From Rivularia sp. T60_A2020_040 (GTDB lineage: Bacteria > Cyanobacteriota > Cyanobacteriia > Cyanobacteriales > Nostocaceae), in NCBI GenBank assembly GCA_015272215.1, contig JACYMD010000015.1:1-62093 (forward strand): DNA of 62,093 nucleotides. The letters are read 5' to 3'. A program made the position numbers and the translations under genes. The notes below the pieces were generated by a model. That model was not told the DNA's origin. It did no database searches and saw only the letters and a list, made by a program, of their open reading frames with translations. This document shows positions 14,375 through 52,016 of this stretch, piece after piece; the first letter of the stretch is position 1, and each line of letters begins with the position of its first letter.

Positions 14375-14375
14375 A

Positions 14376-15528: not shown

Positions 15529-15557
15529 TTTCCCGATTCAAGGATAAAAGGGGGGTT
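15529..15557 (-). terminator. Hairpin between pstS and pstC
   Basis: AACCCCCC (15529-15536) and GGGGGGTT (15550-15557) form a perfect 8-bp GC-rich stem in the pstS-pstC gap. No long T-run follows on the minus strand, so partial termination or transcript stabilisation is more likely than full termination. Excess binding protein over permease is usual for such transporters. Confidence 0.6.
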
Positions 15558-15650
15558 GTGATGTCTAATTGGCTGACGCTCAAGGTAGAATGCACCCATT
15601 ATATTCAGTCTATTTAGTTAATAGTTGATGTAGGAAACTATTAGGATAAA

Positions 15651-16643
15651 TTAGTCTCTAGGTGTAGCCAAAAGTTCGCTAATTTTTACACCAATTTTCT
15701 CTTTACCACCGAATACAGAACCAGTTTGCTTACGATTGAAGCGGTTCAAAATAGCGGTATAAGCAGTGTTAGGTAGAGCTACGTAAGCAACTTTTTTGTT
15801 GATAGCAGCACCATTTTTGAGGTAATACTCAACAAATTGCTTAACTTGGGGTTTGTTAGCAGATTTAGCGCTGACGTAGATGAAGATGGGACGAGATAGA
15901 GGGGAGTACTTACCGCTTCTAATGGTAGATTCAGAAGGTAATACACCATTAATAGATGCAGCTTGCAACTTGGTCTTATTTTCTTCGTAGTAAGCGTAAC
16001 CAAGATAACCGATTGCGTTGCGATCGCGAAGAACTCCATTAATTGTAACGTTGTCATCTTCAGTTGCAGTGTAGTCACCACGACTGGATTTAGATTTACC
16101 AACAATTGCTTCGGTGAAGTAATCGAAAGTACCAGAGTTGGTACCAGCACCGAACAATCCTATACGAGCATTAGGGAAACCAGAGCGAATTTGATTCCAG
16201 TTTTTGATTTTACCTTGTGCTGCGGGTTCCCACATTTTCTTGAGTTCAGCAACAGTCAGGTTTTTAGCCCAAGTGTTTTGCTTGTTGATTATCACTGTCA
16301 AACCGTCATAAGCAACAGGAATTTCGATATATTTGATACCAGCTTTTTTGCACTCGGCAATTTCTTTTGCCAAAATAGGACGAGAAGCATTGGAAATATC
16401 GGTTTCTCCACGGCAGAATTTTTTGAAACCACCACCAGTACCAGAAACACCAACGGTTACACGGGTTTTACCACCTGTAGCTTTGGTAAATCCTTCTGCT
16501 GCAGCTTCTGTCAAAGGGAAAACGGTGCTGGAACCGTCAACCCGAATAGCTGCATTTTGAGACATAGCAGCAGGAACTGCAACTGAAATACTTGCTGCAA
16601 CTGCGGCAACAACACCCAATACTCTTACTTTCAAACTGTTCAC
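15651..16643 (-). CDS. pstS: Periplasmic phosphate-binding protein PstS
   Basis: Captures phosphate for PstCAB. The start is taken as the GTG at 16643 because TAGGAG lies 7 bp upstream; an earlier in-frame GTG at 16685 would add 14 residues. The 330-residue product begins with a signal peptide ([23 protein letters not shown]) and shows the PstS phosphate loops: [35 protein letters not shown] and [12 protein letters not shown]. It could be called SphX-like; cyanobacteria carry both related forms. First gene of pstSCAB, with a Pho box about 130 bp upstream. Confidence 0.95.
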
Positions 16644-16775
16644 AAAGAAACTCCTAATTGAGATTTTTCGCTTCCGCGTAATCACACAACTAACAGAATC
16701 TCCGTATTAGGTTAAAAGCAAGTTATTGTTTTTACACAATTACGTAAAGCTTTTCCTAAAATATGCTTGTAATTA

Positions 16776-16794
16776 TGGTTAAGTTTAGATTAAA
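16776..16794 (-). promoter_or_regulatory. Pho box upstream of pstS
   Basis: Read on the minus strand: TTTAATCT, three bases, CTTAACCA. Both octamers match the cyanobacterial Pho box consensus PyTTAAPyPy(T/A) perfectly and sit in the required 11-bp register; a third, degenerate repeat (TTACAAGC, 16765-16772) follows. It is 133 bp upstream of the chosen pstS start and should bind the SphR/PhoB response regulator under phosphate limitation (established for this motif; binding here is inferred). Confidence 0.85.
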
Positions 16795-33157: not shown

Positions 33158-33176
33158 TTTAACCAAAACTTAACCT
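33158..33176 (+). promoter_or_regulatory. Pho box upstream of the nuclease/5'-nucleotidase gene
   Basis: TTTAACCA (33158-33165), three A residues, CTTAACCT (33169-33176): two perfect matches to PyTTAAPyPy(T/A) in the exact 11-bp register, oriented like the pstS box relative to its gene. An AT-rich stretch that could hold a -10 element follows (33186-33215). The downstream gene at 33726 encodes phosphate-releasing enzymes, the type of gene expected in a Pho regulon. The 550-bp distance implies a long leader. Confidence 0.75.
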
Positions 33177-33328
33177 AAAATGGTTTATTTTTTAATCCAC
33201 TTTTCTTAGTATTTAGAATGTAAGTATTAATATTTACAGGAGCTTATTGATTAACTCAGGAAAAACTCTGACAAGAGATTCTGAACTAGAAATAAATGCT
33301 TGAAGTTGTTAATTAGCAAACAAATCCT

Positions 33329-33475
33329 ATGACTCAGACAACTGGAATCGTGCGTGCTGGACTTGTGATCAACAAGGTTTTGAGCAACTCAAATAAATTA
33401 GTAGCGGATGTAAACCAGGATACTGGTAATCATGCTAGTGAGATGAAAAAATACTCGAACCAAATGCATTTTTAA
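33329..33475 (+). CDS. Possible 48-residue leader-encoded protein
   Basis: ATG at 33329 to TAA at 33475, between the Pho box and the large secreted enzyme gene. The product begins MTQTTGIVRAGLVINKVL and is moderately hydrophobic in its first third and polar in the rest. The codon pattern (GTGCGTGCTGGACTTGTG) is less AT-rich than its surroundings, which is the main reason to list it. No clear ribosome site and no recognised family. May be a fragment of a lost gene. Confidence 0.3.
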   Translation: MTQTTGIVRAGLVINKVLSNSNKLVADVNQDTGNHASEMKKYSNQMHF

Positions 33476-33725
33476 TTCAGAAAATACGGATACCAATTCT
33501 AGTTAATTCTGAGATGGTAGTAACGAGAAAATCAGACATATATATTTGAGTAATTTTTCATGACGAGAGAGTTTTCTTAATTGAGTAAATTACTCTGCAA
33601 CTAGTTTGATTTATATCTATTTGAATGAATCAATTTAGTTGGGTGATTTGGAAATTGTGGTTTGTAGAAAAATCAAATCATACTAACTTGAAAATTCTGT
33701 ATTTTTGATTCATAGGAGCATTTGA

Positions 33726-36700
33726 GTGGCTGACATATTTATTTCTGAGTACATTGAAGGTAGTAGTAATAATAAAGCGATAGAACTCTATAATCCAACA
33801 GATTCAGTAGTTGATTTAGCCGCTGATAATTACACCATTGAACTTTACAGCAACGGAGCTTCATCTCCAAGTCAAAGTTTATCTTTAACAGGTACCATTG
33901 CGAGTAAAGATGTTTTTGTAATTACTCGTTCTAATGCTGACGAAGCGATTAAAACAGTTGCTGATATCACCAATGCTGATTCAGTAATCAATTTTAATGG
34001 TGACGATGCAATTGTAATCAAGAAAAATGGTGCCGTTATTGATGTAATTGGACAAGTTGGTTTCGATCCTGGTAGTGAGTGGGGTAGTGGGGATACTTCT
34101 ACTGCAAACAACACTATTCGTAGAAAACTAACTATTACATCAGGTGATACTAATCCTGGTGATGCTTTTGATCCTTCAGTAGAATGGGATGGTTTTCCTC
34201 AAGACACATTTAATGGATTGGGTTCTGATAATTCTGATGATAACGACAACAATGGTGGTTCTAGTGTCAAAATCTATGACATCCAAGGCGCTGCTCACAC
34301 TTCACCACTTGTAGGTGAATCTGTAACTACCACTGGTATTGTCACCGCAGTTGATCGCAACGGTTTTTATCTCCAAGATGCTACAGGAGATGGAAATAAT
34401 GCAACTTCCGACGCTATATTCGTATTTACTAGTTCTGCTCCTACAGTCACAGTTGGTGATGATATCGAAGTTAGCGGTACAGTTAGGGAATCTTTCCCTG
34501 GTGGTGCTGCTACTGGTAATCTTTCCACAACTCAAATTGGTGGAAGTCCTACTGTCACCGTAAAATCTAGTGGTAATACGCTTCCTACAGCAACCATTAT
34601 TGGTGCAGGTGGGAGAATTCCTCCTACCGAAAATATTGATGATGATGCTTTCGGTACTATTGCTGGTAAAGGCAATTTTGATCCAGATACTGATGGAATT
34701 GATTTCTTCGAGTCGTTAGAAGCAATGCTGGTGACAGCGAAAGATGCTGTTGCTGTTGCTGGTACTAACCGTTTTAGGGAAATTTTCACAGTTGTCGATG
34801 ATGGTACGGATGCTACAGGTATCAGTCAGCGCGGTACTTTGAATATCAGCCCCGATGATTTTAACCCCGAAAGAGTCCAAATTCAACAAAATACGGAGAT
34901 TTTAACAGGGTTTACTATTCCTCAAGTAGATACTGGAGCAAAATTAGGAGATGTTACCGGGGTTGTTGGTTATGGTTTCGGTAACTTCGAGATTTACCCA
35001 ACTCAATCGTTTACTGTTACTCCTGCAACTATCCAACCAAAAACCACAACTATTGAAGGTGATGCAGATAAACTGACAGTTGCTAGCTACAACGTGCTGA
35101 ATCTCGATCCCAACGATGCTGATGGGGATACAGATGTAGCTGATGGAAGATTTGACGCGATCGCAACTCAAATCGTCAGTAACTTAAAAACTCCTGACAT
35201 CATCGGTTTACAGGAAGTTCAGGATAATACTGGTTCCACCAATGATGGTGTGACAGCAGCAGATCAAACTTTACAACAACTAGTTGATGCGATCGCGGCT
35301 GCTGGTGGTCCGACATACAGTTTTATCGACAACACCTTTATCAGTAATAACACTAGCGGTGGTCAACCTGGTGGTAATATCCGCACTGCTTTCCTCTACA
35401 ATTCCGACCGCGTAAACTTAGTAGATGGTTCAGTTGCCACAATTCAAGATACTGCCTTCGCTGGTAGTCGCTTACCTTTAGTAGCTAAATTTACCTTCAA
35501 TGGTGAAGAAGTTACGGTTGTGAATAACCACTTCTCCTCTAAAGGTGGTAGCGCTCCAATTTTGGGAGTACAGCAACCCTTTGAAGCCCGTCAAGAAGAA
35601 GTCGCAGTCAACGGAAGTCTTGATGAACGTCAAGCCCAAGCCCAAGCTGTTAAAGGTTACGTTGACGGTATTTTAGCCGCAGACGCTAACTCTAATGTTG
35701 TCGTCCTCGGTGACTTCAACGAATTTGAATTTGTCTCTCCTGTAACAACTTTGGCAGAGAGCTTGACAAACTTGACAGAAACTGTTCCAGAAGACGAACG
35801 TTACACTTTTAACTTCCAAGGTAATTCCCAATCCTTGGATCATATTTTGGTTAGTGCTAATTTAGCTGACAATGCCGAGTTTGACATCGTACACGTAAAC
35901 TCGGAATTTGCGGAAACTGCTCAAAGAGCAAGTGATCATGACCCATTAGTTGCAAGTTTATCAATTCCTAAAAATATGGCTTCTCAAAAAATTAACCTCA
36001 GTCAAATCAGTACTTTTCAGGGAACTGGCGCGGAAATCCTAGCACACGACCCCACAACCCAACGTTTGTTTGTTACTACTGGGGATACTGTAGAAATTAT
36101 CGATATTAGTAACCCAGCTAGTCCTACTAAGTTTGGTGAAATTGATATTACTACTATTGGTGGTGGTGTTAATAGCGTTGCAGTTAAAAACGGTATCGTA
36201 GCCGTAGCAGTGGAAGCTAATACTGCACAAGAGCCTGGTGTAGTCGCATTCTACAACACCGACGGTGTATTCCAAAGTTCCGTTGTAGTGGGTGCGCTTC
36301 CCGATATGCTCACCTTTACCCCCGATGGAACCAAAATCTTGGTTGCTAACGAAGGTGAACCCAATGCTGATTATACTGTTGACCCAGAAGGTTCTATCAG
36401 TATTATTGATATCTCTAGTGGTATTGGTAGCGCAACAGTAACCACTGCTGGCTTTACTGGCTTTAATAACCAGAAACAAGCGTTAATTAACAAAGGTGTC
36501 CGGATTTTTGGACCGAATGCTACTGTTGCTCAAGATTTAGAACCAGAATATATTGCAGTATCTGCCGACGGTAGCAAAGCATTTGTGACTTTACAGGAAA
36601 ACAACGCGATCGCTGTTCTTGATATCGCTAGGGCAACAGTTACCGATGTTTTACCTTTGGGTTATAAAGAACACTTTCAACCTGGAAATGGTTTTGATGC

Positions 36701-39700
36701 TAGCGATCGCGATGTTGATGGCAGCAGTGGTGGTGGTGGTAAAATTAACATTCAAAATTATCCTGTGTTGGGGATGTACCAACCGGATAGTATTGCTTCC
36801 TTTGAAGCTGATGGTAAAACCTACTATCTCACCGCAAATGAAGGGGATGCACGCATTCGTCCCACAGAGGATGATATTCTCCCAGCTCCCAATAATGACG
36901 AGGGAGATATTTTTAATGAAGAAGTCAGAGTTGGCAATAATGCAGTTGTTTTAGACCCTACCGCTTTCCCTAATGCTGCAACCCTCAAAAACAATGCTAA
37001 TCTTGGTCGTTTAACAATTACCAACACCCTGGGAGATACAGATGGTGATGGCGACTACGATAAATTGTATGCTTTTGGTGCGCGTTCTTTCTCTATTTGG
37101 GATGACCAAGGTAAATTAGTATTTGACAGTGGTGACCAGTTAGAACGAATTACCGCAGAACAAACACCGACGTTGTTTAATGCGAATAACGGATTAACCA
37201 GTAATTTTGATACCCGTTCCGACAACAAAGGACCAGAGCCAGAAGCTGCCACAGTTGGTGTGATCAACGGTAAACCCTACGGATTCGTTGGTTTAGAACG
37301 TGCTGGTGGTGGTGTAATGGTTTACGATCTGAGCAACCCCGCAGCGCCGGAATTCATTCAGTACATTCGTACCGAAGGTGATATTTCTCCAGAAGGATTT
37401 AAGTTTATCTCCGCTGCGGAAAGTCCGAATGGGAATCCCGTATTGGCAGTTGCGAACGAAATAAGCAACACAACCACACTTTATAATATTGACCTTCCCA
37501 ATTTCACCCTACAACTACTCCACGCAGCAGACCAAGAAGCAGGTATCCCAGCACTTGATGACGCACCCCGTTTTAGTGCTGTATTGAATGCACTGAAAAA
37601 TCAAGATGCTGATAACGATGGAAATGTTGACTATGAAAATACTGTCATACTTTCCTCCGGTGACGCTTACATTCCTGGTTTATTTTTAAACGCAGCAGCA
37701 GACCCTTCCCTTACTTCATTATTAGGTAAAGAAGGTAGAGGACGCGCTGATATTATCATCCAAAACGAACTTGGTTTCCAAGCCATTGCTTTTGGTAATC
37801 ATGAATTCGATTTTGGTACAGGCTTTATTGAATCGGTAATTGCTCCCGATGGTGATTATCCCGGTGCGAATTTCCCTTATTTGAGCGCAAACCTCGACTT
37901 CACACCCAACGAGGACTTAGCTCCTTTAGTCACTGCTGACGGTCAAGAAGCGAGCGATATCCCTGGTAAAATTGCCAAGAGTACAGTAATTACCGTTAAC
38001 GACGAAAAAATTGGTGTAGTCGGTGCTACCACTCCTGCCCTAGCGCGGATTTCTTCTCCTGGAACTGTTGGTATTCTCCCGGAAGACTCCGATGATATTG
38101 CTGCTCTAGCTGCGGAAATTCAAAAATCCGTAGATGAACTCACAGCAACTGGGATTAATAAAGTCATTCTTCTCGCTCATATGCAACAAATTGGCATTGA
38201 GCAACAGTTGGCTGGTTTACTCAAAGATGTCGATATTATCATGGCGGGTGGTTCCAATACTCGCTTGGTAGACGAAACCGACCGTTTGCGAGATGGAGAT
38301 ACTGCTCAAGGTGTTTACCCAATTCTTCTCAAGTCTGCTACTGGACAAGATGTTGCTCTTGTCAATACCGATGGTAATTATAAATACGTTGGTCGTTTGG
38401 TAGTTGATTTTGATGGTCAAGGTAACATCATTACAGATAGTATTGACCCCACTGTCAGTGGTGCTTATGCTACCGATGATGCAGGAGTTGCAGCCCTAAA
38501 TGCTCAGGAATTAGTAGACCCAGAAATCAAAGCCATTACCGATGCTTTACGCCAAGTAATTCAGGCGCAAGATGGTAACGTTTTGGGTATTACCGAAGTT
38601 TTCCTCAACGGTACTCGCTCAGATGTCAGAACTCAAGAAACCAACTTGGGTAACTTAACAGCCGATGCAAACCTTGATTATGTTAAAGGTTTAGATTCAA
38701 CCGTTGCTGTCTCCATTAAAAACGGTGGTGGTATCCGCGATAGCATTGGTCGGATTGATACACCTCCTGGTGCTATTGAGTCGGAAAAACTTCCCCCCCA
38801 AGGAAACGAGTTATCTGGTAAACCTGATGGTGGTATTTCTCAACCAGATGCAGAAAATGCGCTCAGGTTTAACAATGATTTAACTTTAATTACACTAACC
38901 CCAGAACAATTAAAACAAGTTCTTGAGCATGGTGTAGCAAAAGTAGCACCAGGTGCTACCCGTGGTGAATTCCCCCAAATTGGTGGTGTTTCCTTCAGCT
39001 TTGATGCAACCCAACCCGCAGGACAACGCATCCAAAACGCTGCGATTCTCAATGATGATGGTACTGTCAAAGAAGCTTTAATTAAAGATGGTGAAATCCA
39101 AGGAGATGCAAACCGGGGTATCCGAATTGTTACCCTCAGTTTCTTAGCTAATCGTGGTGATAGTTATCCTTTTGCTGATTTTGTCACAGCAAATCCCACC
39201 TTTGCGAATCGAGTTGATTTAATTGGGGAAACTACTACAGACCTCAACCTCAATGGTATTATTGATGCACCTGTTAACCCTGCCTTATTCGACCCCGGTA
39301 ACGCTAATTTTGCGGCTTCTGGTACCGAACAAGACGCATTTGCTGAGTATCTCTTAGCTAACTTTAATACACCGGAAACTGCCTTTAAAGTTGCTGATGT
39401 TCCAGCAACACAAGATATGCGGATTCAGAACTTGGCTTTACGTGATGATACGGTATTGAAAGGTTTCGGTAATGTTATAGAAAACACTTCTAGTGCAATT
39501 CTTGACGATGGAACTGAAGTTGAATTCATTGATTTAAGAAGTTTAACTGGTCAAGCAACAGTTAACTTTACCATCAATAGAGAAGCTAACTTCAACAATC
39601 AAGTTTACTTCTATAAAGTTGATGATATCACTGGTACTGTTGGCGGTGTTGCTGTTAATGACAGCGGTTATCTGCAAGCTGCTTTGAACAACCGAGTTTC

Positions 39701-39980
39701 TCCTGAATTCTCCACCAGCGATGACAATACAGAAAGCGGAAGCTTCTTGTTTGAAGCTGGTTCGATAGTAGTTCCCCTAATTATCGCTGATGGTAACTTA
39801 ACTGAAGCACTCAGCGGTGCAGCTGAAGTTTACTTCTCATACTTGGGAGCTAACACAGACGACGGTAACTTCGATCACGTCAAATTAGTTGGTGAAAACA
39901 CCTTCGGTTTTGAAGATTTACCCAACGGTGGTGATAGAGATTTCAACGATATTGTTATTAAGATTGAGAGTATTGCTTAA
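33726..39980 (+). CDS. Giant secreted nuclease/5'-nucleotidase fusion with DUF4114 tail
   Basis: 2084 residues; GTG start at 33726 with TAGGAG 8 bp upstream. Domains in order: lamin-tail domain (about 3-140, FISEYIEGSSNNKAIELYNP); OB-like region (180-430) as in NucH/ExeM nucleases; endonuclease/exonuclease/phosphatase domain (445-745; SYNVLNLD, IIGLQEVQD, VVLGDFNEFEF, SDHDPLVAS); choice-of-anchor-I propeller (755-1250); 5'-nucleotidase metallophosphatase (1255-1900; SSGDAYIPG, FGNHEFDFG, LLAHMQQ, NLGNLTADA, KNGGGIRD); DUF4114 (about 1940-2084; FGFEDLPNGGDRDFND). The usual GHSH metal motif reads GGSNT. No signal peptide. Probably degrades extracellular DNA and releases phosphate; secretion by the nearby type I exporter is inferred. 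Confidence 0.9.
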   Translation: MADIFISEYIEGSSNNKAIELYNPTDSVVDLAADNYTIELYSNGASSPSQSLSLTGTIASKDVFVITRSNADEAIKTVADITNADSVINFNGDDAIVIKKNGAVIDVIGQVGFDPGSEWGSGDTSTANNTIRRKLTITSGDTNPGDAFDPSVEWDGFPQDTFNGLGSDNSDDNDNNGGSSVKIYDIQGAAHTSPLVGESVTTTGIVTAVDRNGFYLQDATGDGNNATSDAIFVFTSSAPTVTVGDDIEVSGTVRESFPGGAATGNLSTTQIGGSPTVTVKSSGNTLPTATIIGAGGRIPPTENIDDDAFGTIAGKGNFDPDTDGIDFFESLEAMLVTAKDAVAVAGTNRFREIFTVVDDGTDATGISQRGTLNISPDDFNPERVQIQQNTEILTGFTIPQVDTGAKLGDVTGVVGYGFGNFEIYPTQSFTVTPATIQPKTTTIEGDADKLTVASYNVLNLDPNDADGDTDVADGRFDAIATQIVSNLKTPDIIGLQEVQDNTGSTNDGVTAADQTLQQLVDAIAAAGGPTYSFIDNTFISNNTSGGQPGGNIRTAFLYNSDRVNLVDGSVATIQDTAFAGSRLPLVAKFTFNGEEVTVVNNHFSSKGGSAPILGVQQPFEARQEEVAVNGSLDERQAQAQAVKGYVDGILAADANSNVVVLGDFNEFEFVSPVTTLAESLTNLTETVPEDERYTFNFQGNSQSLDHILVSANLADNAEFDIVHVNSEFAETAQRASDHDPLVASLSIPKNMASQKINLSQISTFQGTGAEILAHDPTTQRLFVTTGDTVEIIDISNPASPTKFGEIDITTIGGGVNSVAVKNGIVAVAVEANTAQEPGVVAFYNTDGVFQSSVVVGALPDMLTFTPDGTKILVANEGEPNADYTVDPEGSISIIDISSGIGSATVTTAGFTGFNNQKQALINKGVRIFGPNATVAQDLEPEYIAVSADGSKAFVTLQENNAIAVLDIARATVTDVLPLGYKEHFQPGNGFDASDRDVDGSSGGGGKINIQNYPVLGMYQPDSIASFEADGKTYYLTANEGDARIRPTEDDILPAPNNDEGDIFNEEVRVGNNAVVLDPTAFPNAATLKNNANLGRLTITNTLGDTDGDGDYDKLYAFGARSFSIWDDQGKLVFDSGDQLERITAEQTPTLFNANNGLTSNFDTRSDNKGPEPEAATVGVINGKPYGFVGLERAGGGVMVYDLSNPAAPEFIQYIRTEGDISPEGFKFISAAESPNGNPVLAVANEISNTTTLYNIDLPNFTLQLLHAADQEAGIPALDDAPRFSAVLNALKNQDADNDGNVDYENTVILSSGDAYIPGLFLNAAADPSLTSLLGKEGRGRADIIIQNELGFQAIAFGNHEFDFGTGFIESVIAPDGDYPGANFPYLSANLDFTPNEDLAPLVTADGQEASDIPGKIAKSTVITVNDEKIGVVGATTPALARISSPGTVGILPEDSDDIAALAAEIQKSVDELTATGINKVILLAHMQQIGIEQQLAGLLKDVDIIMAGGSNTRLVDETDRLRDGDTAQGVYPILLKSATGQDVALVNTDGNYKYVGRLVVDFDGQGNIITDSIDPTVSGAYATDDAGVAALNAQELVDPEIKAITDALRQVIQAQDGNVLGITEVFLNGTRSDVRTQETNLGNLTADANLDYVKGLDSTVAVSIKNGGGIRDSIGRIDTPPGAIESEKLPPQGNELSGKPDGGISQPDAENALRFNNDLTLITLTPEQLKQVLEHGVAKVAPGATRGEFPQIGGVSFSFDATQPAGQRIQNAAILNDDGTVKEALIKDGEIQGDANRGIRIVTLSFLANRGDSYPFADFVTANPTFANRVDLIGETTTDLNLNGIIDAPVNPALFDPGNANFAASGTEQDAFAEYLLANFNTPETAFKVADVPATQDMRIQNLALRDDTVLKGFGNVIENTSSAILDDGTEVEFIDLRSLTGQATVNFTINREANFNNQVYFYKVDDITGTVGGVAVNDSGYLQAALNNRVSPEFSTSDDNTESGSFLFEAGSIVVPLIIADGNLTEALSGAAEVYFSYLGANTDDGNFDHVKLVGENTFGFEDLPNGGDRDFNDIVIKIESIA

Positions 39981-41187: not shown

Positions 41188-43077
41188 ATGGCTAATCCCA
41201 ATGCAAAAGAGCAGTATATGCTCGAATTAATCAACCGGATGCGAACAAATCCCCAGGCTGAGTACGATATTCTTGTTAATTCTACTAACCCAGATATTCA
41301 AACCGCTCTGAGCTATTTCAAGGTTAATTTAACGGAGTTGAAATCTCAGTGGGATCAACTTCAAAGCGCACAACCTGTAGCTTGGTCTAATAAATTACAT
41401 GACTCGGCGGTTACTCATACTCAGTTGATGATTGATTATGACCTGCAATCCCATAATTTACCAAACGAACCATCTCTTCGCGATCGCATTCTCAATACTG
41501 GTTATCAATTTACGACGGTGGCGGAAAATATCTACGCATACGGAAGTTCGGTTTTGGAAAGTCATGCAGCTTTTGCCATCGATTGGGGAAATAACCCTAA
41601 TGGTATCCAAAATGGAACAGGACATCGTAATGCTATCATGTCGAATAATTATCGAGAAGTCGGGGTTGGTATTCTATCAGAAAATAATCGCTCTACACAA
41701 GTCGGTTCTTTACTCACTACTCAACATTTTGCTAACAGTCAACAACTTTCCACAACTAATACTTCTTGGTTACTCGGTACGGTATTCCGCGATGTTGACG
41801 ACGATGATTTCTACAGCATCGGTGAAGGTTTAAGTGATATTACTGTTAATATTAGTGAGATTAGTAACCTCAATTTCAATACCTCAATCAAAACTCTAAG
41901 TGCTGGTGGATACCAAACTTTATTATCTCCTGGAGAATATCAAGTCGAATTCATCCGAGAAAATAATACTCTTAAAACTCAACAAGTCAGCATCGATAAG
42001 GAAAATATCAAACTCGATTGGATGATAGATGGTAAAACTTACCAACTGGATAACGGAAAACGAGATGCTCACTATAATTCCGGTAGCGGTGACGCAATTG
42101 TATTTAATGCTTACACTGTGGAATCCCCATTTCAAACCATCGATTTTATTTCTGTCGGTTTATCTAACTTAGGTAATCCATCTGCTATTTTTCTCTATGA
42201 AGATAAAGACAACGACAAACAACCAGACAGCGATGAAAAGATATTAGAGCTTGAGACTAACTTTATAGATAGTCAGGGTTTTGCTCATATCTCGATTCCT
42301 CCCACAACAGTAGAAAATACCTTTTTTGTAGGTGCTTTATACAAACATAATGATAACCAACCAAACTGGATTCCCATAAGTAATAACAGTAATAACACTC
42401 CAACTAATCAATCTTGGATAGCTACTAGTAACAATGGTAATTTAGACCTAGAAAACTTTTCTACTTCTTTATTAGAGGATAAAAATTGGCTGTTGCGTGC
42501 TAGTTCATCAGACAACTCAATAATTACTCCTGTTGAACTACCGAATGATATACCCATCGGTACAAAGCTGCAAAAAAACAACAATATTGAGCTAGTAGAT
42601 TTAACCAACCAAATTGGTATGATTAAAACTACTGTTACAGTCACTCGTGATGCAGACTACGATAATGTAATCGGTTTTTACGTAATTAACGATGTCAACG
42701 GCGGCATCAAAATTAATGATGAAATCATAAATCCGGGTGATACAAGATACAAACAAGCAGCTTTACAAAACCGGATAACTAGCCTCGATTTACTGCAAAC
42801 TGAGGATTCTATTCCAAGTAACTTTAATGGAACATTGAACGGTGGTAGTATATTTGCTCCTTTTATCATTGTCGATGGAACATTTAATGATGCTTTAAAT
42901 AACAAAGTAGAAGTATACTTTGCATATCAAGGAGCAAATACTGATAAATTCGATCATATTCGCTTGTTGGGTGATAACACCTTTGGTTTTGAAGACTTAC
43001 CCAACGGTGGCGATAGAGGCAGCATAGCTGATCGCGATTACAATGATTTAATTATCAAGATGGACTTTAGCGTTTAA
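41188..43077 (+). CDS. Secreted CAP-domain protein with DUF4114 tail
   Basis: 629 residues, ATG at 41188, no signal peptide. A CAP/SCP-like domain (about 5-185; MLELINRMRTNPQAEY, HTQLMIDYDLQSHN, GTGHRNAIMSNNYREVGVGI) is followed by an SdrD-like Ig fold (193-272; GTVFRDVDDDDFYSIGEGLSD), a region of unknown type with an acidic Asp-rich segment (YEDKDNDKQPDSDEK), and DUF4114 (about 475-629; FGFEDLPNGGDRG, SIADRDYNDLIIKMDFSV). Bacterial CAP proteins are extracellular with varied roles, so no enzymatic function is claimed. A palindrome begins 22 bp after the stop. Type I secretion is inferred. Confidence 0.88.
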   Translation: MANPNAKEQYMLELINRMRTNPQAEYDILVNSTNPDIQTALSYFKVNLTELKSQWDQLQSAQPVAWSNKLHDSAVTHTQLMIDYDLQSHNLPNEPSLRDRILNTGYQFTTVAENIYAYGSSVLESHAAFAIDWGNNPNGIQNGTGHRNAIMSNNYREVGVGILSENNRSTQVGSLLTTQHFANSQQLSTTNTSWLLGTVFRDVDDDDFYSIGEGLSDITVNISEISNLNFNTSIKTLSAGGYQTLLSPGEYQVEFIRENNTLKTQQVSIDKENIKLDWMIDGKTYQLDNGKRDAHYNSGSGDAIVFNAYTVESPFQTIDFISVGLSNLGNPSAIFLYEDKDNDKQPDSDEKILELETNFIDSQGFAHISIPPTTVENTFFVGALYKHNDNQPNWIPISNNSNNTPTNQSWIATSNNGNLDLENFSTSLLEDKNWLLRASSSDNSIITPVELPNDIPIGTKLQKNNNIELVDLTNQIGMIKTTVTVTRDADYDNVIGFYVINDVNGGIKINDEIINPGDTRYKQAALQNRITSLDLLQTEDSIPSNFNGTLNGGSIFAPFIIVDGTFNDALNNKVEVYFAYQGANTDKFDHIRLLGDNTFGFEDLPNGGDRGSIADRDYNDLIIKMDFSV

Positions 43078-43099
43078 AACCGATATTTTCTGTTCGGTG

Positions 43100-43163: not shown

Positions 43164-43206
43164 AATACTCCACCACATTAATTGTGATGGATAATTCATT
43201 AGTAGT

Positions 43207-43487: not shown

Positions 43488-43896
43488 ATAATGCCGATTG
43501 ATTGTTTAATTAAAAGTATGTGTGAGCTGCTTGACAATCAGTTTATATTTATAGTCAGGTCAAAAACCGCATCTGAATTTTGAACAACGGTTAAACTATT
43601 AAATATACTTATTAAAAATTCAATAAAAGTAACAAAACTACCAATGAATCGAATATACCCTTTGCAATTACAAGATTTTTTAACTACTATAATTTTCAGT
43701 AATTATCCGAATAGCATATGTTCCCATATCTAGGTATTAATAACACTCAGGAGATAATAGTAAAATTAACCTTTAGCTTGTGCTTTATTCTTTATTAACC
43801 AAATTACAACTTGTTAATAACTTTATAAACATAATTTGATTGAAATGATTGAAAGTAATTTATCACAGCGGCAAACCGGATGATACAGATATTATT

Positions 43897-44649
43897 ATGA
43901 CCGCAATTTTGCAGATTGGCGATCGCACAATTAATCTTGATGAAATTGTTCCGCTGCTCAAGCAGTACGGAATGCTTCCTCAATTGCTAAAAGAGATAGT
44001 TATTGATAATGCAACAGCTTCTATTGGGCTTTCCGAAGAAGAAGTACAAAACGCATATAAACAGTTTTACCAGCAGCAGCAATTAGGGGATGAAGAGCAA
44101 TTACAAGCTTGGCTCAAATCCCGTGGTTGGGAGCGCCAACAACTAGAGTATTTGGTAACTCGCACTATCAAACTAGAAAAATTCAAACAAGAGACTTGGG
44201 GGACGAAATTAGAATCATATTTTCTGCAACGCAAGGAAAAATTAGATAAAGTAATTTATTCGTTAATTCGGGTAAAGGATATTGCCATTGCCCAAGAATT
44301 ATATTTTCGGGTTCAAGAAAATGAGCAGCCTTTCGCAGAGTTGGCTCGCGAGTATTCTCAAGGGCCAGAAGCACAAACTGGTGGTTTAATTGGTCCAGTA
44401 GAGTTAGGGGTTCCTCATCCAATTTTAGCAAAAATGTTACTCAAATCTCAACCGGGACAAGTATTACCACCGACTCGTTTGGGAGATTGGATTTTAATTG
44501 TTCGGTTAGACAATTTTATTCCAGCGCAGTTGGATGCAGCAACGCAACAGCGATTGTTAAACGAGCAATTTGAAGCTTGGTTACAAGGAGAAATTGCTTC
44601 TGCAATCAAAGATGGTAAGTTGTCGGTGGATAATTCTACTCAAAGCTAG
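43897..44649 (+). CDS. Parvulin-type peptidylprolyl isomerase of the secretion cluster
   Basis: 250 residues from the ATG at 43897; an upstream in-frame TTG at 43849 would add 16. The N-terminal half is SurA-like helical (LLKQYGMLPQLLKEIVIDN), and about residues 125-220 form a PPIC rotamase domain (AQELYFRVQENEQPFAELAREYSQGPEAQTGGLIGPVELG). No signal peptide, so it is probably cytoplasmic and may handle export substrates before transport. It precedes the ABC exporter and HlyD genes on the same strand, an arrangement I associate with cyanobacterial type I secretion loci (from memory). Confidence 0.85.
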   Translation: MTAILQIGDRTINLDEIVPLLKQYGMLPQLLKEIVIDNATASIGLSEEEVQNAYKQFYQQQQLGDEEQLQAWLKSRGWERQQLEYLVTRTIKLEKFKQETWGTKLESYFLQRKEKLDKVIYSLIRVKDIAIAQELYFRVQENEQPFAELAREYSQGPEAQTGGLIGPVELGVPHPILAKMLLKSQPGQVLPPTRLGDWILIVRLDNFIPAQLDAATQQRLLNEQFEAWLQGEIASAIKDGKLSVDNSTQS

Positions 44650-44651
44650 TT

Positions 44652-44807: not shown

Positions 44808-47800
44808 ATGGCTTATACAACAACTAACATTCAAGAATTTTTAGCCGAGATTAATCCCTTTAACCAGCTACAACCGGCTGTACTGTCAAAGCTTTTAGAA
44901 AAAGCACAACTGTACCGCTACCGGATGGGACAAGTGATTTTAGCGCGGGAAAAAATGCCCGCTCAAGTATCAATTTTGCATTCGGGACAAGTGCGTTTAT
45001 TGGGTTACGAGCCGGAAACCCAAATACCCGTAACTTTGGCAAGATTACAACCTGGAGAGGTTATGGGTTGGCTGGAAGTTTTACGGGGAGTAGGTGGTTC
45101 TACTGCCATTGCTTCCACGGAAGTTATATGTATTAACTTAAATACTGAGGATTTTCTGGCTTTATTAAGTCAAGAAGAAAGTTTTGCATCCTATTTTTAT
45201 CTTAGTGCGGGAATAGTTGAAGTATTTGAATTACTCTCGAAGCAACTCAAAACTCATGCCAATAGCCAGTTGATTCTAGAAGCATCCGATTGCAATAATT
45301 GTAAGGAATTAGCGCTAAAAATTTTTGATGATGCTCAGATTGCTAATTTAACAACTCGCGAAGCTGCCAAGCAATTAAGTCAAGATTATCTGTGGTTAGT
45401 CAGTGGAGGAACAGTTTCTCCCGATGTAATCGGTAATCGCTTTGACTCCACCGAATCTTTACCAAAAGGAAGTCGAGTACGTTTGTTAGGTTTACCTTTC
45501 AATGTTTTTTCACCCCAACCAAGGCTCGAAGATATCGGGGAAGAAGCGCAACAAGCTCATATCGCCGAAGTTATTCCTGGTGGAAATTCAACAACATATG
45601 ACGATATTCCTTACGCACCATTAGAACCTCCAGAAGCCGCAAACAATACTAAGCGAGATTCTGCTGCTAGTAAATATCCTCACGTGCGCGGTAGTGGCGG
45701 ATTAAACGCGATTCTGGCTTGTTTCCAGATGTTGAGCAAGCATTTAAATATGCCTTTCCGTCGGGAAGTGATTCGTAAAGTATTAATTAATCAACAAAAA
45801 CGCACGGGTTCGTTATCGTTGCAACAGTGCGGTGCTGTAGCCCAATTAGTCGGTTTAAGACCACAATTAATCGGCGTACCTGCAAGCGCTATTGGTAGAA
45901 TTGAAGCACCCGCCATCGTACAATGGCAAGACAGTTTTGCTGTACTTTACGAAATTAGCCCTAAAACCATCGTTCTTGGGGTACCAGAATCGGGAATCCT
46001 GCGTCAAAAACCCTCTGATGTCGCCCAAGTGTTGCTGCAATCGAACCCCCAACCCAAAGAAGAGCAACAACAAGATGTCGTTCCCGTACTGCTGCTGCAA
46101 GCCACCTCGGAAACACCGCAACAAAAATTTGGTCTGAGTTGGTTTTTACCTTCCTTAGTTAAGTATAAAGGGGTACTAACAGAAGTATTTGTTGCCTCCT
46201 TCTTCGTGCAGCTATTTGGTTTAGCAAACCCTTTAGTAACTCAGGTAATCATCGATAAAGTCATTAACCAGAACAGCCCAGATACTCTACAAGTTCTCGG
46301 TATATTCCTCTTGGTTATTGCAGTATTTGAGGCAGTACTTACCAGTATTCGGACTTATTTATTCGTTGATACCACCAACCGCATTGACTTAACCTTGGGT
46401 TCGGAAATTATCGACCACTTGTTACGCTTACCATTACGCTACTTTGAAAAGCGACCCGTGGGTGAACTTTCCACCAGGGTAAACGAATTAGAAAAAATTC
46501 GGCAATTTTTAACCGGAACCGCTTTAACTGTAGTGTTAGATGCGATTTTCTCGGTAATTTACATCGTGGTGATGTTTATCTATAGCTGGTTACTGGCTTT
46601 AGTTGCTCTGGCAACATTACCATTATTTGCCATCCTTACCTTCGTGGTTTCTCCCATCGTCCGCCGACAACTACGAGTCAAAGCAGAACGTAACGCCGAA
46701 GCGCAATCCCACCTAGTAGAGATTTTATCAGGTATTCAAACAGTTAAAGCCCAAAATATCGAATTGCGATCGCGCTGGCAGTGGCAAGAACGTTATGCTC
46801 GCTATGTGAGTGCTGGCTTCAAAACAGTGTTAACTTCTACTACTGCTAGTTCTACCAGTGGATTTCTCAACAAACTTTCCGGCTTACTCGTACTTTGGGT
46901 AGGGGCTTTTTTAGTATTAGAGCAAAAATTAACTTTAGGGGAATTAATCGCTTTTCGCATCATCGCTGGTTACGTAACTTCTCCCTTGCTACGTCTTACC
47001 CAACTATGGCAAAACTTCCAAGAAACTGCTTTATCCTTAGAACGTTTGAGCGACATTATCGACTCACCCCAAGAAGCCACTGAAGAAGATAAAGGTAACA
47101 TCCCCATGCCGATGATTGAAGGGGCTGTTAAATTTGATAACGTCTCCTTCCGCTTCAAACCCACTGGACCGATGCAGTTAAATAACATTAACTTAGAATT
47201 TCCGGCGGGGGTATTTGTTGGTGTCGTCGGACAAAGTGGTTCCGGTAAAAGTACATTAATGAAACTGGTACCGCGTTTATATCCGTTAGAATCCGGACGC
47301 ATTCTCATCGACGGTTACGACATTAATAAAGTAGAACTTTACTCCCTGCGAGAGCAAGTAGGGATTGTACCTCAAGATACTTTACTTTTTGAAGGACCAG
47401 TCCAGGAAAATATCGCTTTAAATTATCCTGATGCCACCCCAGAGGAGATTATCGAAGCAGCTAAAATCGCAGTGGCACATGATTTTATCATGGAGCTACC
47501 CAATGGGTACAATAGTAGAGTCGGCGAACGAGGTAGCGCTTTATCCGGCGGACAGCGACAAAGAATCGCAATTGCTCGGACAATTTTACAAAATCCCCGT
47601 TTATTAATCCTTGATGAAGCTACTAGCGCTCTAGACTACGAATCCGAACGTCAGGTATGCTTAAATTTAGCAGAAGCCTTCAAAGGAAGGACTGTATTTT
47701 TTATAACTCATAGATTAAGTACTATCCGCAATGCCGATACTATCTTGATGTTAGATAAAGGTTACGTTGTAGAACAAGGAACCCATCAAGAATTAATGTC

Positions 47801-47852
47801 ACTCAAAGGACGTTATTACTGTCTGTATCAACAACAGGAAGCGCAAATTTAA
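44808..47852 (+). CDS. HetC/HlyB-like ABC exporter with cyclic-nucleotide-binding and C39-like domains
   Basis: 1014 residues. Order: cyclic-nucleotide-binding-type domain (about 15-130; YRYRMGQVILAREKMPAQV, LQPGEVMGWLEVL); linker; C39-like domain (about 285-420; RGSGGLNAILACFQML, IVQWQDSFAVLYEI), where the catalytic Cys and His of true C39 peptidases are not in place; membrane domain (about 440-720); ABC ATPase with intact Walker A GQSGSGKST, LSGGQRQRIAIARTIL, LLILDEATSALD and THRLSTIRNAD. Same architecture as HetC but without hetP nearby. With the PPIase and HlyD it forms a type I exporter; the likely cargo is the adjacent DUF4114 proteins (inference). Confidence 0.9.
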   Translation: MAYTTTNIQEFLAEINPFNQLQPAVLSKLLEKAQLYRYRMGQVILAREKMPAQVSILHSGQVRLLGYEPETQIPVTLARLQPGEVMGWLEVLRGVGGSTAIASTEVICINLNTEDFLALLSQEESFASYFYLSAGIVEVFELLSKQLKTHANSQLILEASDCNNCKELALKIFDDAQIANLTTREAAKQLSQDYLWLVSGGTVSPDVIGNRFDSTESLPKGSRVRLLGLPFNVFSPQPRLEDIGEEAQQAHIAEVIPGGNSTTYDDIPYAPLEPPEAANNTKRDSAASKYPHVRGSGGLNAILACFQMLSKHLNMPFRREVIRKVLINQQKRTGSLSLQQCGAVAQLVGLRPQLIGVPASAIGRIEAPAIVQWQDSFAVLYEISPKTIVLGVPESGILRQKPSDVAQVLLQSNPQPKEEQQQDVVPVLLLQATSETPQQKFGLSWFLPSLVKYKGVLTEVFVASFFVQLFGLANPLVTQVIIDKVINQNSPDTLQVLGIFLLVIAVFEAVLTSIRTYLFVDTTNRIDLTLGSEIIDHLLRLPLRYFEKRPVGELSTRVNELEKIRQFLTGTALTVVLDAIFSVIYIVVMFIYSWLLALVALATLPLFAILTFVVSPIVRRQLRVKAERNAEAQSHLVEILSGIQTVKAQNIELRSRWQWQERYARYVSAGFKTVLTSTTASSTSGFLNKLSGLLVLWVGAFLVLEQKLTLGELIAFRIIAGYVTSPLLRLTQLWQNFQETALSLERLSDIIDSPQEATEEDKGNIPMPMIEGAVKFDNVSFRFKPTGPMQLNNINLEFPAGVFVGVVGQSGSGKSTLMKLVPRLYPLESGRILIDGYDINKVELYSLREQVGIVPQDTLLFEGPVQENIALNYPDATPEEIIEAAKIAVAHDFIMELPNGYNSRVGERGSALSGGQRQRIAIARTILQNPRLLILDEATSALDYESERQVCLNLAEAFKGRTVFFITHRLSTIRNADTILMLDKGYVVEQGTHQELMSLKGRYYCLYQQQEAQI

Positions 47853-48060: not shown

Positions 48061-49611
48061 ATGACTCAATTAAACGGAAATCTCAACGGTAATGGCTCCC
48101 GACAAACCCTACTCCCTGGATTAGGGAATAGTCCCCAAGATTCTATCCCTCAAAAAAATGGTAAATCAAGAGTTTCGGAGTTTGATCAACCTGTAATTTT
48201 GCGGCGATCGCCATTATTTTCACGGGCGGCGCTATGGAGTATTTTGGGTGTAACTGTTTTTACCGTTACCTGGGCGTATTTTTCTCGAATTGACCAAGCT
48301 GTCCCCGCTCAAGGAAAGCTGGAACCTCAAGGAACGGTTAGAGAAGTCCAGGTTCCTGTAAATGGTATGGTGAAAGAGGTGTTTGTTAAGGATGGAGACC
48401 GGGTAAAACAAGGAGACTTGCTGCTACGTCTTGATCATGCTGGTGCTGAAGCAGAATTGGTTTCCACCAGAAAAGTTCGGGAAGCTCTAAAATTAGAAAA
48501 TCAATTTTATCGCAGTTTATTTAGTGGTTCAGGTTCTTTACCAACAACAGCTTCGATCCAAGTACCCCAAGAAATGGGAAATTTAGCTCAAAGTCGGGCT
48601 GCTTTATTAAAAGAAAATCAATTTTATCGAGTACTATTGAGCGGAAATAGCAATGGTGTAAATTTGACCGGAGAGCAGCAACTGCGTTTATTTTCCAGCC
48701 AAGAACAATTAAGGTCTCAAGGCGCTCAAATCAAGTTAGAACAAGCCCAATTACAACAACAATTAGCACAAACTAAAGAAAAACTGGATAATTCTCGAAA
48801 TATTCTCAGTATTAATCAAGGTATTCTTAACGATTTAGAACCATTGTACAGAGAAGGGGCGATCGCTCGTTTACAATACCTACAACAAAAGCAAGAGGTT
48901 AGCAACCGTCAAAGTGAAGTTGCTCAACTTTCTCAAGAAATACAGCGTTTGAGGTTGGCTATTACTCAAACAGGTCAGCAGTTGCAAAATGCTTTATCAA
49001 CTTCCACTAAAGATATATTGACTCAAATCGCAGACAATGAAAAACGTATTGCTGAAATTGACAGTCAAATTAATAAATCTATAGTCGAAAATGAAAAACG
49101 AATTGCCGAACTCGATGGTCAAATCAAGCAAGCTTCATTAACTAGAGAATACCAAGTTGTCAAAGCTCCGGTAGATGGAGTTGTATTTGATATGAAAGCC
49201 AGTAATCCTGGATATGTAGCTAATACGACGGAACCCGTACTGAAAGTCGTACCGGAACAATCTTTGATGGCGGAAGTGTTTATTACTAACAAAGATATCG
49301 GGTTTGTTAAAGAAGGAATGCCGGTTGATGTTAGATTTGAAAGCTATAATTTCAGTGAATTCGGCGATATTAAAGGCACCCTGGTTTCAATTGGTAAAGA
49401 TGCTTTACCGCCGGATCAAATTCATCCTTACTACCGTTTTCCAGCAAAAATTGAGTTAGATCGACAAACTTTAGCAGCGAACGGAAGGCAATTACCTCTG
49501 CAATCGGGAATGTCTGTTACTGCAAATATTAAAACTAGGGATAGAAGTATTTTAAGTATATTTACTGACAAGTTTACTCAAACAGCCGAAAGTGTGAAAT
49601 TTGTCAGATAG
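48061..49611 (+). CDS. HlyD-family membrane fusion protein
   Basis: Periplasmic adaptor linking the ABC exporter to an outer-membrane TolC-type channel. 516 residues: short cytoplasmic N-terminus, one membrane helix (about 58-80, RAALWSILGVTVFTVTWAYF), barrel-sandwich half (QGTVREVQVPVNGMVKEVFVKDGDRVKQGDLLLRLD), long coiled-coil hairpin (about 215-370), second half of the lipoyl-like domain (VKAPVDGVVFDMKASNPGYVA) and C-terminal barrels. No TolC homologue is in the window. The ATG is preceded by heptamer repeats instead of a clear ribosome site. Confidence 0.92.
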   Translation: MTQLNGNLNGNGSRQTLLPGLGNSPQDSIPQKNGKSRVSEFDQPVILRRSPLFSRAALWSILGVTVFTVTWAYFSRIDQAVPAQGKLEPQGTVREVQVPVNGMVKEVFVKDGDRVKQGDLLLRLDHAGAEAELVSTRKVREALKLENQFYRSLFSGSGSLPTTASIQVPQEMGNLAQSRAALLKENQFYRVLLSGNSNGVNLTGEQQLRLFSSQEQLRSQGAQIKLEQAQLQQQLAQTKEKLDNSRNILSINQGILNDLEPLYREGAIARLQYLQQKQEVSNRQSEVAQLSQEIQRLRLAITQTGQQLQNALSTSTKDILTQIADNEKRIAEIDSQINKSIVENEKRIAELDGQIKQASLTREYQVVKAPVDGVVFDMKASNPGYVANTTEPVLKVVPEQSLMAEVFITNKDIGFVKEGMPVDVRFESYNFSEFGDIKGTLVSIGKDALPPDQIHPYYRFPAKIELDRQTLAANGRQLPLQSGMSVTANIKTRDRSILSIFTDKFTQTAESVKFVR

Positions 49612-50360: not shown

Positions 50361-52016
50361 ATGAAATCGCCTTCAGACATTTTTGAATGCCTTCATCTAA
50401 GAAAACATATCTACACCAATACTAACAAAATGTTGATAACAATGCCAAATTCTACAGAAGTTAACGTCATCCCTCGCGAAAACCAAAACCTTGGTACAGC
50501 ATCTCTTAACCTTGATGACAATGCGAATTATCAAATAACTCTCTCGCCGGTAAATCAAAATACTCAGTACAACTTTGCTTATATTATTGACGTATCAGAC
50601 AGCATGAGCGGGGAGCCGCTTCAAGCAGCGAAAAATGCTTATATTAGTTTAACAAACTCATTAATTGATAGCGGGATTGCAGAGGTATCGCAATTTGCGG
50701 TAATTCCTTTTGGCTCTGATGCATTGCTCAACGCACCCTTAAATCCAGCACAAGCAATCTCAACCATTGAAGGTTTATCTCTTAATGGTTTTACTAATTT
50801 TAATGCAGCACTGGAAAAAGCCAATCAGTTCTTTTCTACAGTACCTCCGGGAGCAACCAATAAAGTTTATTTTCTCTCTGATGGGTTTTCAACCACAGGA
50901 GGAAGTTTTAAGAATACAGCAAAAGCCCTACAATCGGTAGCTGATGTTCAAGCTTACGGTTTTGGTGCTGCAAATATCCAACAATTAAATATTGTAGATT
51001 CAGACAAACCTACAATCGTTTCCCAAACATCAGAATTAGCAGATGAATTTGTTAATTCTATACTTTCTCGCGATGATATCTCTAAGATTAATATTCTTTT
51101 AGATGACAAAATTATTCAAACCATTCAACCCGAAGAGTTGAAAGAAAGTTCTGCTGGTTTAACTTTTACAGGTTCCATTGACGGTTTAAATCCCGAAAAG
51201 GATACACAAAATAAGCTGTCCGCAGAAATAGTTTATACTGACAAAACCCCCGACACTACAGTTGATTTAGTCGTTAATTCAGAAACAGATAAAAATAATA
51301 ATCAAGAAAATCTGGGTAATCCAGTTCCACAAACGATACAAGTAGTTCCAAAACTGGGTAATGAGCTTCCTATTCTCAGCGTTGACGATAATATGGGAAC
51401 CAACATCATTGAATTTCCTACAACCTTTGAGAATAACAAACCAGAATATCCCAAAGTTGCGGTAATCGAAAACGATAATGTCGAACAAACTCCACAAATT
51501 GTTCCCCAAAATGCAGTTCAAAATATCATCGATGGCAACTTACTTAACTTAGAATCCTTTACAGGTAATGTTGCAATCACTTTTGCTGTAGATAGAGAAG
51601 CATTATTTGATAATACTGTCGGTTTTTACAAAATTGAAGACGCAGAAGGAACCATTACCGAGCCAATAACTGGAAATAAGCTTAAACCTAGTGATGGTAA
51701 AGCTTATGCAGAATTAGCTCTGAAGCTTCATCAACCCGAACTTGAATTAACGGTAGATAACCTCAGTTCCACTATTATCCAAGACAGCCTCTCAGGAGGA
51801 TATCTTTATGCTCCCTTCATGATTGCTGACGGGAATCTCGATACCCTCAAAGGAGACTTTAGTCAAGTCTATTTCTCCTTTGCTCAAGCTAATTCCGATG
51901 GAGTAGAGCATATTCGTTCTCTAGGAAACAATAGCTTGGGTTTTGAAGATTTATGGAAGGGTGGCGATAACGACTTCAACGATATGGTTATTCGTACTGA
52001 GATTACAATGGTTTAA
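50361..52016 (+). CDS. Secreted VWA-domain protein with DUF4114 tail
   Basis: 551 residues from ATG 50361; in-frame ATGs at 50430 and 50442 are plausible because the first 23-27 residues look unlike the rest. A von Willebrand factor A domain (about 65-235) keeps the MIDAS motif DVSDSMSG and FLSDGFS, so divalent-metal-dependent adhesion is likely. A middle region of about 150 residues is unassigned. The C-terminus (about 400-551) is DUF4114, ending LGFEDLWKGGDNDFNDMVIRT. No signal peptide, as in the other two DUF4114 proteins, suggesting the same export route. Two copies of the palindrome follow. Confidence 0.88.
   Translation: MKSPSDIFECLHLRKHIYTNTNKMLITMPNSTEVNVIPRENQNLGTASLNLDDNANYQITLSPVNQNTQYNFAYIIDVSDSMSGEPLQAAKNAYISLTNSLIDSGIAEVSQFAVIPFGSDALLNAPLNPAQAISTIEGLSLNGFTNFNAALEKANQFFSTVPPGATNKVYFLSDGFSTTGGSFKNTAKALQSVADVQAYGFGAANIQQLNIVDSDKPTIVSQTSELADEFVNSILSRDDISKINILLDDKIIQTIQPEELKESSAGLTFTGSIDGLNPEKDTQNKLSAEIVYTDKTPDTTVDLVVNSETDKNNNQENLGNPVPQTIQVVPKLGNELPILSVDDNMGTNIIEFPTTFENNKPEYPKVAVIENDNVEQTPQIVPQNAVQNIIDGNLLNLESFTGNVAITFAVDREALFDNTVGFYKIEDAEGTITEPITGNKLKPSDGKAYAELALKLHQPELELTVDNLSSTIIQDSLSGGYLYAPFMIADGNLDTLKGDFSQVYFSFAQANSDGVEHIRSLGNNSLGFEDLWKGGDNDFNDMVIRTEITMV

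Follow-up and report, generated by a model that had tools for sequence, protein, structure and literature searches.

The locus described here raises the question of whether one protein chain can hold both the cutting of DNA and the release of phosphate from the resulting nucleotides. In water, dissolved DNA makes up a substantial source of phosphorus, and in the usual picture DNA cutting and phosphate release are carried out by separate enzymes. The stretch analyzed (the window) comprises 62,093 nucleotides of Rivularia sp. T60_A2020_040 (JACYMD010000015.1), contig C90 of a 6.0-Mb cyanobacterial genome, and contains a gene for a 2084-residue protein downstream of tandem Pho-box octamers. The best explanation overall, which sequence comparison makes highly probable, is that this gene is a Pho-regulon fusion of PhoA and NucH functions whose product is exported by a type I system. 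With the same high probability, one chain would carry the functions of phoA and nucH, which are separate genes in other cyanobacteria. The gene and its parts are as follows.

33726..39980, plus strand: fusion gene, GTG start, 2084 amino acids (single open reading frame, domain searches)
33714..33718, plus strand: AGGAG ribosome-binding sequence, seven bases before the GTG (from the sequence)
34266..35969, plus strand: nuclease part, residues 181-748, close to PDB 9sf9/9sf8
36024..37493, plus strand: choice-of-anchor I beta-propeller, residues 767-1256, candidate atypical-PhoA phosphatase
37482..39215, plus strand: 5'-nucleotidase part, residues 1253-1830, CD73/UshA fold with altered metal ligands
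39501..39977, plus strand: C-terminal module with DUF4114, residues 1926-2084, candidate type I secretion tail

Profile searches placed a lamin tail at residues 2-111, an ExeM/NucH profile at 202-746 (including Exo_endo_phos at 454-738), choice-of-anchor I at 767-1255, a 5'-nucleotidase at about 1263-1815 and DUF4114 at 2009-2081. The original prediction had joined nuclease, choice-of-anchor I, 5'-nucleotidase and DUF4114 domains in one gene, and the domain profile search that it proposed as a check confirmed all four; the lamin tail had been missing from its list. The choice-of-anchor I and ExeM/NucH families have one match each in the genome, both in the fusion gene. A second 5'-nucleotidase-like protein of the same genome (561 amino acids, about 40% identity) is encoded at G000:C76:35558-36955.

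The nuclease part aligned with the solved structure 9sf9 over residues 181-746 (E 7.4e-93), a full-length match, and contains the motifs LQEVQDN, LGDFNEFE and SDHDPL, presumably the catalytic ones. Its score against NF033681 (ExeM/NucH), 195 bits for a cut-off of 300 with 545 of 546 profile positions covered, speaks against a subfamily assignment; judged by these comparisons, the part is homologous to ExeM/NucH and is not filed in the NCBIfam subfamily NF033681. The other half of the enzyme, propeller plus 5'-nucleotidase, is 61% identical to L149, a protein of 1403 residues. Published boxes of the sll0654-sll0656 (phoA-nucH) promoter (PMC1906773) agree with the L149 promoter at 27 of 30 bases; for the related L150 the upstream region agrees at 28 of 30, and no other locus scanned scored as high. 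Because of this identity and promoter match, the propeller-nucleotidase half probably corresponds to what Su and colleagues call PhoA (PMC1906773); as in the promoter-matched orthologue, choice-of-anchor I and 5'-nucleotidase stand in one protein, the composition of sll0654-type PhoA. In Synechocystis PCC 6803, phoA-nucH is described as an SphR-activated operon (PMC1906773), and in phosphate-starved Nostoc PCC 7118 nucH (alr0276) is reported to be up (PMC7564538). The suggestion that PhoA-like and NucH-like activities are fused here gains support from both halves, which match a NucH-like nuclease and a cyanobacterial PhoA by profiles, identity to L149 and promoter match.

If the chain serves phosphate acquisition, its promoter should be sought in the Pho regulon. 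The relevant elements are listed below.

33158..33176, plus strand: Pho box made of the direct octamers TTTAACCA and CTTAACCT, both perfect, with the 3-bp spacer AAA (sequence, pattern scans)
33191..33198, plus strand: third octamer, TTTAATCC, in the 11-bp register, the position at register +22 being degenerate (sequence, alignment)
33208..33213, plus strand: -10-like hexamer TAGTAT, 9 nt past the third octamer (alignment), with a putative promoter role
16776..16794, minus strand: second strict Pho box of the window, before a pst-like operon, used as in-window positive control
12702..16685, minus strand: pstS-C-A-B-like operon (PBP_like_2, two BPD_transp_1, ABC_tran)

The tandem octamers with their 3-bp spacer are present exactly as had been described; the third octamer and the TAGTAT hexamer had been overlooked. 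The pattern YTTAAYYW-N3-YTTAAYYW occurs twice in the window; 100 shuffles averaged 0.12 and never gave as many as two. YTTAACCW-N3-YTTAACCW occurs once, compared with 0.00. Both strict boxes precede phosphate-type genes: one the fusion gene, the other, 91 bp upstream, the PstS-like gene that begins the pstSCAB-like operon. Another pst-like operon elsewhere in the genome has a Pho-box site too (genes judged by eye). The tandem octamers conform to the cyanobacterial Pho regulon, with the last base of the third octamer off consensus. In an alignment of nine fusion genes, the window's included (seven of the genus and two of other genera), the box, the in-register third octamer and the hexamer are conserved among orthologues, the third-octamer core TTAA[TC] and the hexamer form TA[AG][CT]AT being kept in 9/9. 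When upstream windows were scored among the six divergent fusions, the box came fourth of 702 at a width of 19 bp, 2 bp from the maximum, and third of 676 at 45 bp, 1 bp from the maximum. Pho boxes overlapping the -35 region have been described for activated Synechocystis promoters (PMC13226834), and binding of SphR to at least three direct repeats has been reported (PMC1906773).

Pho-like sites were sought more widely by comparing 59 loci with choice-of-anchor I genes to 216 other open reading frames (ORFs) of the same loci. Within 300 bp upstream, a Pho-like site at p<=0.01 was found in 17/59 loci versus 7/216 control ORFs, and at p<=0.05 in 24/59 versus 27/216; these figures indicate a tendency, because related genes are not independent. 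In the 300-bp test none of five fusions had a site at p<=0.05, their box being situated near -500; when 700 bp were searched, three of the five reached p<=0.025.

Several observations at the promoter level weigh against the best explanation. In addition to the 0/5 result, the other two fusions reached only p 0.065 and 0.075 over 700 bp, and the control ORFs reached p<=0.05 in 12.5% of cases, above nominal. Strict octamers occur in just 3/9 fusions, the other six having TTAAAC in the first repeat, and parts of the leader, in the leader ORF considered below, score 0.77-0.78 in 30-bp bins, nearly the level of the box. The end of the box lies 549 nt from the GTG, a long distance. Genome-wide, the loose pattern has 34 sites versus 27 for its reverse and is hardly enriched; perfect CC octamer pairs also stand beside unrelated genes in this genome, and of five other regions around such sites (L111, L112, L114, L115 and L117) just L115 shows phosphate genes (both judged by eye). 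A pattern scan of the window found no strict Pho box at the type I secretion cluster. The Pho motif alone proves little, and it is the conservation across fusion genes that carries weight; on that conservation, the gene is apparently Pho-controlled and would be induced by phosphate starvation.

Between promoter and fusion gene lies one further element.

33329..33475, plus strand: conserved leader ORF, 48 codons, MTQTTGIVRAGLVINKV...

Counterparts of 42-48 codons are present in 7/7 fusion loci of the genus. Outside the genus, the best matches were at E 0.057 in 118 family genomes and E 1.2 in the loci compared; the former (G043) was dropped as chance, as were L158 (E 1.2) and L096 (E 2.3) after inspection of their sequences. 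Over the 16 codons past the start, pairwise differences by codon position number 36, 43 and 98, a coding-like pattern, and over 40 codons they number 251, 196 and 322, with 105 synonymous and 211 other single changes. Because the pattern fades over the longer span, just the first part of the leader ORF looks constrained. The last 70 nt of the fusion-gene leader are poorly conserved. Consensus scans of 33100-33730 found no sigma-70 site and no terminator-like site, and an Rfam search of 33000-33800 returned nothing credible (best E 0.35, below gathering).

The step from nucleotides to free phosphate would fall to the 5'-nucleotidase part. Its model (mean predicted local distance difference test, pLDDT, 94.5) has a CD73 fold, with 2z1a (E 2.5e-40) and CD73 (E 3.0e-38) as top matches, and so a predicted canonical CD73/UshA fold. 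An alignment of the window with 77 of the 114 relatives available was used to compare the metal site. The CD73 residues Asp85, Asn117 and His118 are kept in 78/78 sequences, Asp36 in 76 and His220 in 75. Against canonical activity, the His243 position is Gly in 78/78 and the His38 position is Glu (76) or Asp (2), so that the full metal-histidine set is absent (H38->E, H243->G). H38, H243 and the other aligned CD73 residues are presumably metal ligands. Because it is fixed across the 78 relatives, the altered metal site is a family trait and not a decay of the window copy. The 5'-nucleotidase of the original prediction thus stands as a fold; a canonical metal site does not, since the site is altered family-wide.

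The propeller had been named as a domain without a catalytic role; it is present, and a catalytic unit is more likely than an anchor or spacer, given its invariant residues and the Pho-boxed genes that encode it alone. It scores 590 bits against NF038117 (choice-of-anchor I; cut-off 300), a family whose annotation names an anchor-bearing domain and nothing more. In 50 propeller sequences (49 of 90 relatives plus the window), 33 columns are invariant, and 20 of these are Asp, Glu, Asn or Arg; among four distant small-genome homologues, two have all 20 polar invariants, one has 19 and one has 18. Genes that encode the propeller alone measure 564-626 codons from stop to stop, and by eye their N termini resemble signal peptides. 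Such genes were surveyed at 14 loci, four of which (L029, L030, L032, L033) were excluded as the gene was not found by motif; Pho boxes at p<=0.02 precede nine of the 10 genes with readable upstream regions (L022-L026, L028, L031, L034 and L035, with L027 the exception). Several share the layout of the fusion: octamers stand at 0, +11 and +33, with a degenerate one between the last two. The published Anabaena phoA boxes alr5291 and Ava_2541 find their best match upstream of a stand-alone propeller gene, L105 (25 and 24 of 30; next best 23). At L319, a propeller gene directly precedes a separate 5'-nucleotidase gene, and from the gene order and a weak promoter match (22/30, tied with unrelated loci) this pair is inferred to be orthologous to SYNW2390/SYNW2391. 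The SYNW2391 protein is reported to be up when phosphate is low; SYNW2390 went undetected (PMC3865332). The invariant polar columns, the Pho-boxed stand-alone genes and the L319 gene pair together suggest that the propeller is an enzyme.

Two points count against reading the propeller as a phosphatase. Homology to PhoX was not found, profile comparison with 16 PhoX sequences giving an hhalign probability of 1.1, and proteins with both choice-of-anchor I and 5'-nucleotidase parts cannot tell which part acts. A search of solved structures with the propeller profile returned propellers of a generic kind, namely surface-layer protein 1l0q, hydrazine synthase beta and a gluconolactonase (E 0.018), with DFPase at E ~2 only. 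A literature search found no paper linking 'choice-of-anchor I' with 'phosphatase'. A tentative proposal, argued by analogy and a little less probable than its opposite, is that the propeller is the metal-dependent catalytic core of the cyanobacterial atypical PhoA, analogous and not homologous to PhoX/Psip1; the exported chain would then line up three phospho-hydrolases, expressed from a Pho promoter and with a leader peptide specific to the genus. For a specialist, the family evidence on the propeller is probably the most surprising part.

For such a chain to act on dissolved DNA it must leave the cell, and the genes downstream suggest how.

41188..43077, plus strand: CAP-domain protein, C-terminal module common with the fusion
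43849..44649, plus strand: PpiC-type prolyl isomerase of the secretion cluster
44808..47852, plus strand: type I secretion ATP-binding cassette (ABC) transporter (cNMP-binding, C39-like, ABC)
48061..49611, plus strand: HlyD-type membrane fusion protein
50361..52016, plus strand: von Willebrand factor A (VWA) protein, C-terminal module common with the fusion

No hydrophobic segment or signal peptide is visible by eye in the N-terminal sequence of the fusion protein. Its tail of about 160 residues also ends otherwise unrelated proteins of this genome (subtilase-like, propeller-repeat, CAP and VWA), and the CAP and VWA genes flank the PpiC-ABC-HlyD cluster immediately downstream of the fusion (41188-52016). 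In five further genomes of the genus, tail-bearing genes likewise lie on either side of a PpiC-ABC-HlyD cluster, making 6/6 with the window; the regions surveyed were picked by tail matches, and the survey covered the genus apart from G104 and G383. Because the tail recurs on proteins flanking a type I cluster in 6/6 genomes, type I export of the fusion protein is likely, and the absence of an N-terminal signal, the C-terminal module and the ABC-HlyD linkage together mark a probable type I substrate. Possibly the C-terminal DUF4114 module (41188-43077, 50361-52016, L287, L288) serves generally as a tag for type I export. That the enzyme is secreted, as had been proposed, is supported by the type I cluster and the common module, not by a signal peptide. 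In an uncontrolled count, PpiC and ABC genes lie near propeller genes in 5/60 fetched loci. No solved structure matched the C-terminal module at E 0.001, and weak LecB-like lectins (E ~0.04) were not used.

Other explanations of the export, the promoter and the enzyme have to be weighed on this evidence. It is unlikely that the fusion leaves by another route and that the adjoining type I cluster serves other substrates only. The fusion adjoins the cluster in the window and lies about 50-60 kb from it in G045 and G083, and the fusion of the genus at L051 lacks a recognizable DUF4114 tail, which also counts against type I export as such; however, the fusion's tail is found on cluster-flanking proteins in all six genomes, and an N-terminal hydrophobic signal that could serve another route is not visible. 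A promoter that drives just the leader ORF at 33329, with the fusion gene under its own promoter further down, would account for the 549 nt between box and GTG, for the conserved leader ORF with its coding-like first part and for the poor conservation of the final 70 nt. This is very unlikely, given that the scans of 33100-33730 found no terminator-like or sigma-70-like site, that leader ORF and fusion gene co-occur in 7/7 genus loci and that the L097 and L098 fusions, for which no such ORF was found, likewise have the box upstream.

The enzyme itself could be read differently, as an extracellular nuclease first and foremost, one that serves biofilm or DNA turnover and in which a catalytically dead 5'-nucleotidase part has become a binding domain. 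The replaced histidines, with Gly at H243 throughout and an acidic residue at H38, favor this, as does the 5'-nucleotidase of the small-genome relative L319, which is further altered. Conversely, the substitutions look fixed and not decaying, the remaining five positions are kept in at least 75 of the 78 sequences, the CD73 fold is modeled with high confidence and the Pho promoter points to phosphate use, which leaves this reading quite unlikely.

Under the preferred explanation, a Pho-regulated and exported fusion of PhoA and NucH functions, phosphate scarcity would cause SphR (PhoB) to bind the 11-bp repeats (33158-33198), which occupy the -35 position, and transcription would start near 33220. 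The 2084-residue protein would leave through a type I system via its C-terminal DUF4114 module, with the secretion cluster at 43849-49611 the likely exporter. Outside the cell, going by the families of the parts, the ExeM/NucH-like part would cut DNA, the 5'-nucleotidase part would strip phosphate from nucleotides and the propeller would most likely strip it from other monoesters; PstSCAB, again judged by family, would take up the phosphate released. A single chain would hold both steps together outside the cell, where intermediates diffuse away, and could make dissolved DNA available to the cell as food. If the propeller is truly an active site, a domain of unknown function becomes a phosphatase. 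What is new, as far as the sequences tell, is that known Pho-regulon enzymes are in one chain tied to a secretion module; the parts were known before as separate genes. A literature search found no paper describing the fusion, which is no proof of absence, and the words 'fusion' and 'fused' are absent from the available portion of PMC1906773.

The fusion is widespread in its genus: nuclease, propeller and 5'-nucleotidase parts occur in 7/8 genomes. It is whole in one frame in the window, G104, G045, G083 and G385, broken by a contig end in G386 and in two frames in the draft G384; for G383, the matches listed comprise nucleotidase parts and tails only. The fusion gene of the closest relative (L279:2057-9105) lies in two reading frames of 443 and 1936 amino acids, a draft error or a real break. 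Across the family, the order nuclease, choice-of-anchor I, 5'-nucleotidase was found in 5/60 fetched loci, the genus included, and it recurs in G222 of another family (L152). In the best 80 of at least 490 confirmed loci, the choice-of-anchor I domain occurs in cyanobacteria and also in Rhodobacteraceae and Bacteroidetes; among the 81 ORFs with a 5'-nucleotidase in these 80 loci, 38 have it alone, 17 have choice-of-anchor I before it, two (an uncultured Rhodobacteraceae bacterium and Reichenbachiella) have the full order and the rest have other orders.

The sequences lend no support to an origin by plain read-through from a phoA-nucH pair, since the order is reversed (nuclease first) and the nuclease tree groups the genes otherwise: the split genes of G020/G069 fall with the window and L051 (100/99), and other fusions lie further out. 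This tree, rooted at its midpoint, shows long branches and unresolved forks and requires four changes for the fusion label. Going by these sequences, fission or reshuffling is as likely an origin of the gene arrangement. Between the pst operon and the fusion gene, 17907-31922 may be an exopolysaccharide cluster: Pfam identifies a sugar transferase there, and a glycosyltransferase and a chain-length/BY-kinase gene were recognized by eye.

Among the closest known systems is phoA-nucH (sll0654-sll0656) of Synechocystis PCC 6803, which resembles the window in its enzyme families, octamers with 3-bp spacing and presumed role. There the genes are separate, whereas the window has one chain with the nuclease first and different modules at both ends, preceded by a leader ORF and adjoined by a secretion cluster. 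The atypical PhoA of Synechococcus elongatus PCC 7942 (Synpcc7942_1392) is comparable through an L151-type protein, whose 5'-nucleotidase (61%) and choice-of-anchor I (60%) parts resemble those of the window; in L151 the 5'-nucleotidase comes first, so that the order is reversed, the tail is DUF4214 and there is no nuclease. L151 is linked to S. elongatus by size, architecture and a weak promoter match only, the published PhoA boxes agreeing with its upstream region at 23/30, tied best. The ExeM/NucH endonucleases (PDB 9sf9/9sf8) align with the nuclease part, whereas the window protein is below the NCBIfam subfamily cut-off and is fused to phosphatase parts. With CD73/UshA (2z1a, CD73) the 5'-nucleotidase part has in common a two-domain fold and the GD, GNHEFD and NGGGIR motifs; it differs in DxE instead of DxH and GGSN instead of GHSN, and no nearer solved relative was found. 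The propeller phosphatases PhoX and Psip1 are similar by analogy only, in a beta-propeller, a phosphate-starvation promoter and acidic invariant residues, and choice-of-anchor I has no detectable sequence homology to PhoX. In G069 (L066:13831-19899), a NucH-like nuclease is joined to phytase-like and PhoD domains in one chain that adjoins a choice-of-anchor I-5'-nucleotidase gene and a type I secretion cluster. That chain differs from the window's in its phytase-like and PhoD parts and in the separate gene alongside, and it resembles it in having the same nuclease part, according to the tree, and several hydrolases per chain.

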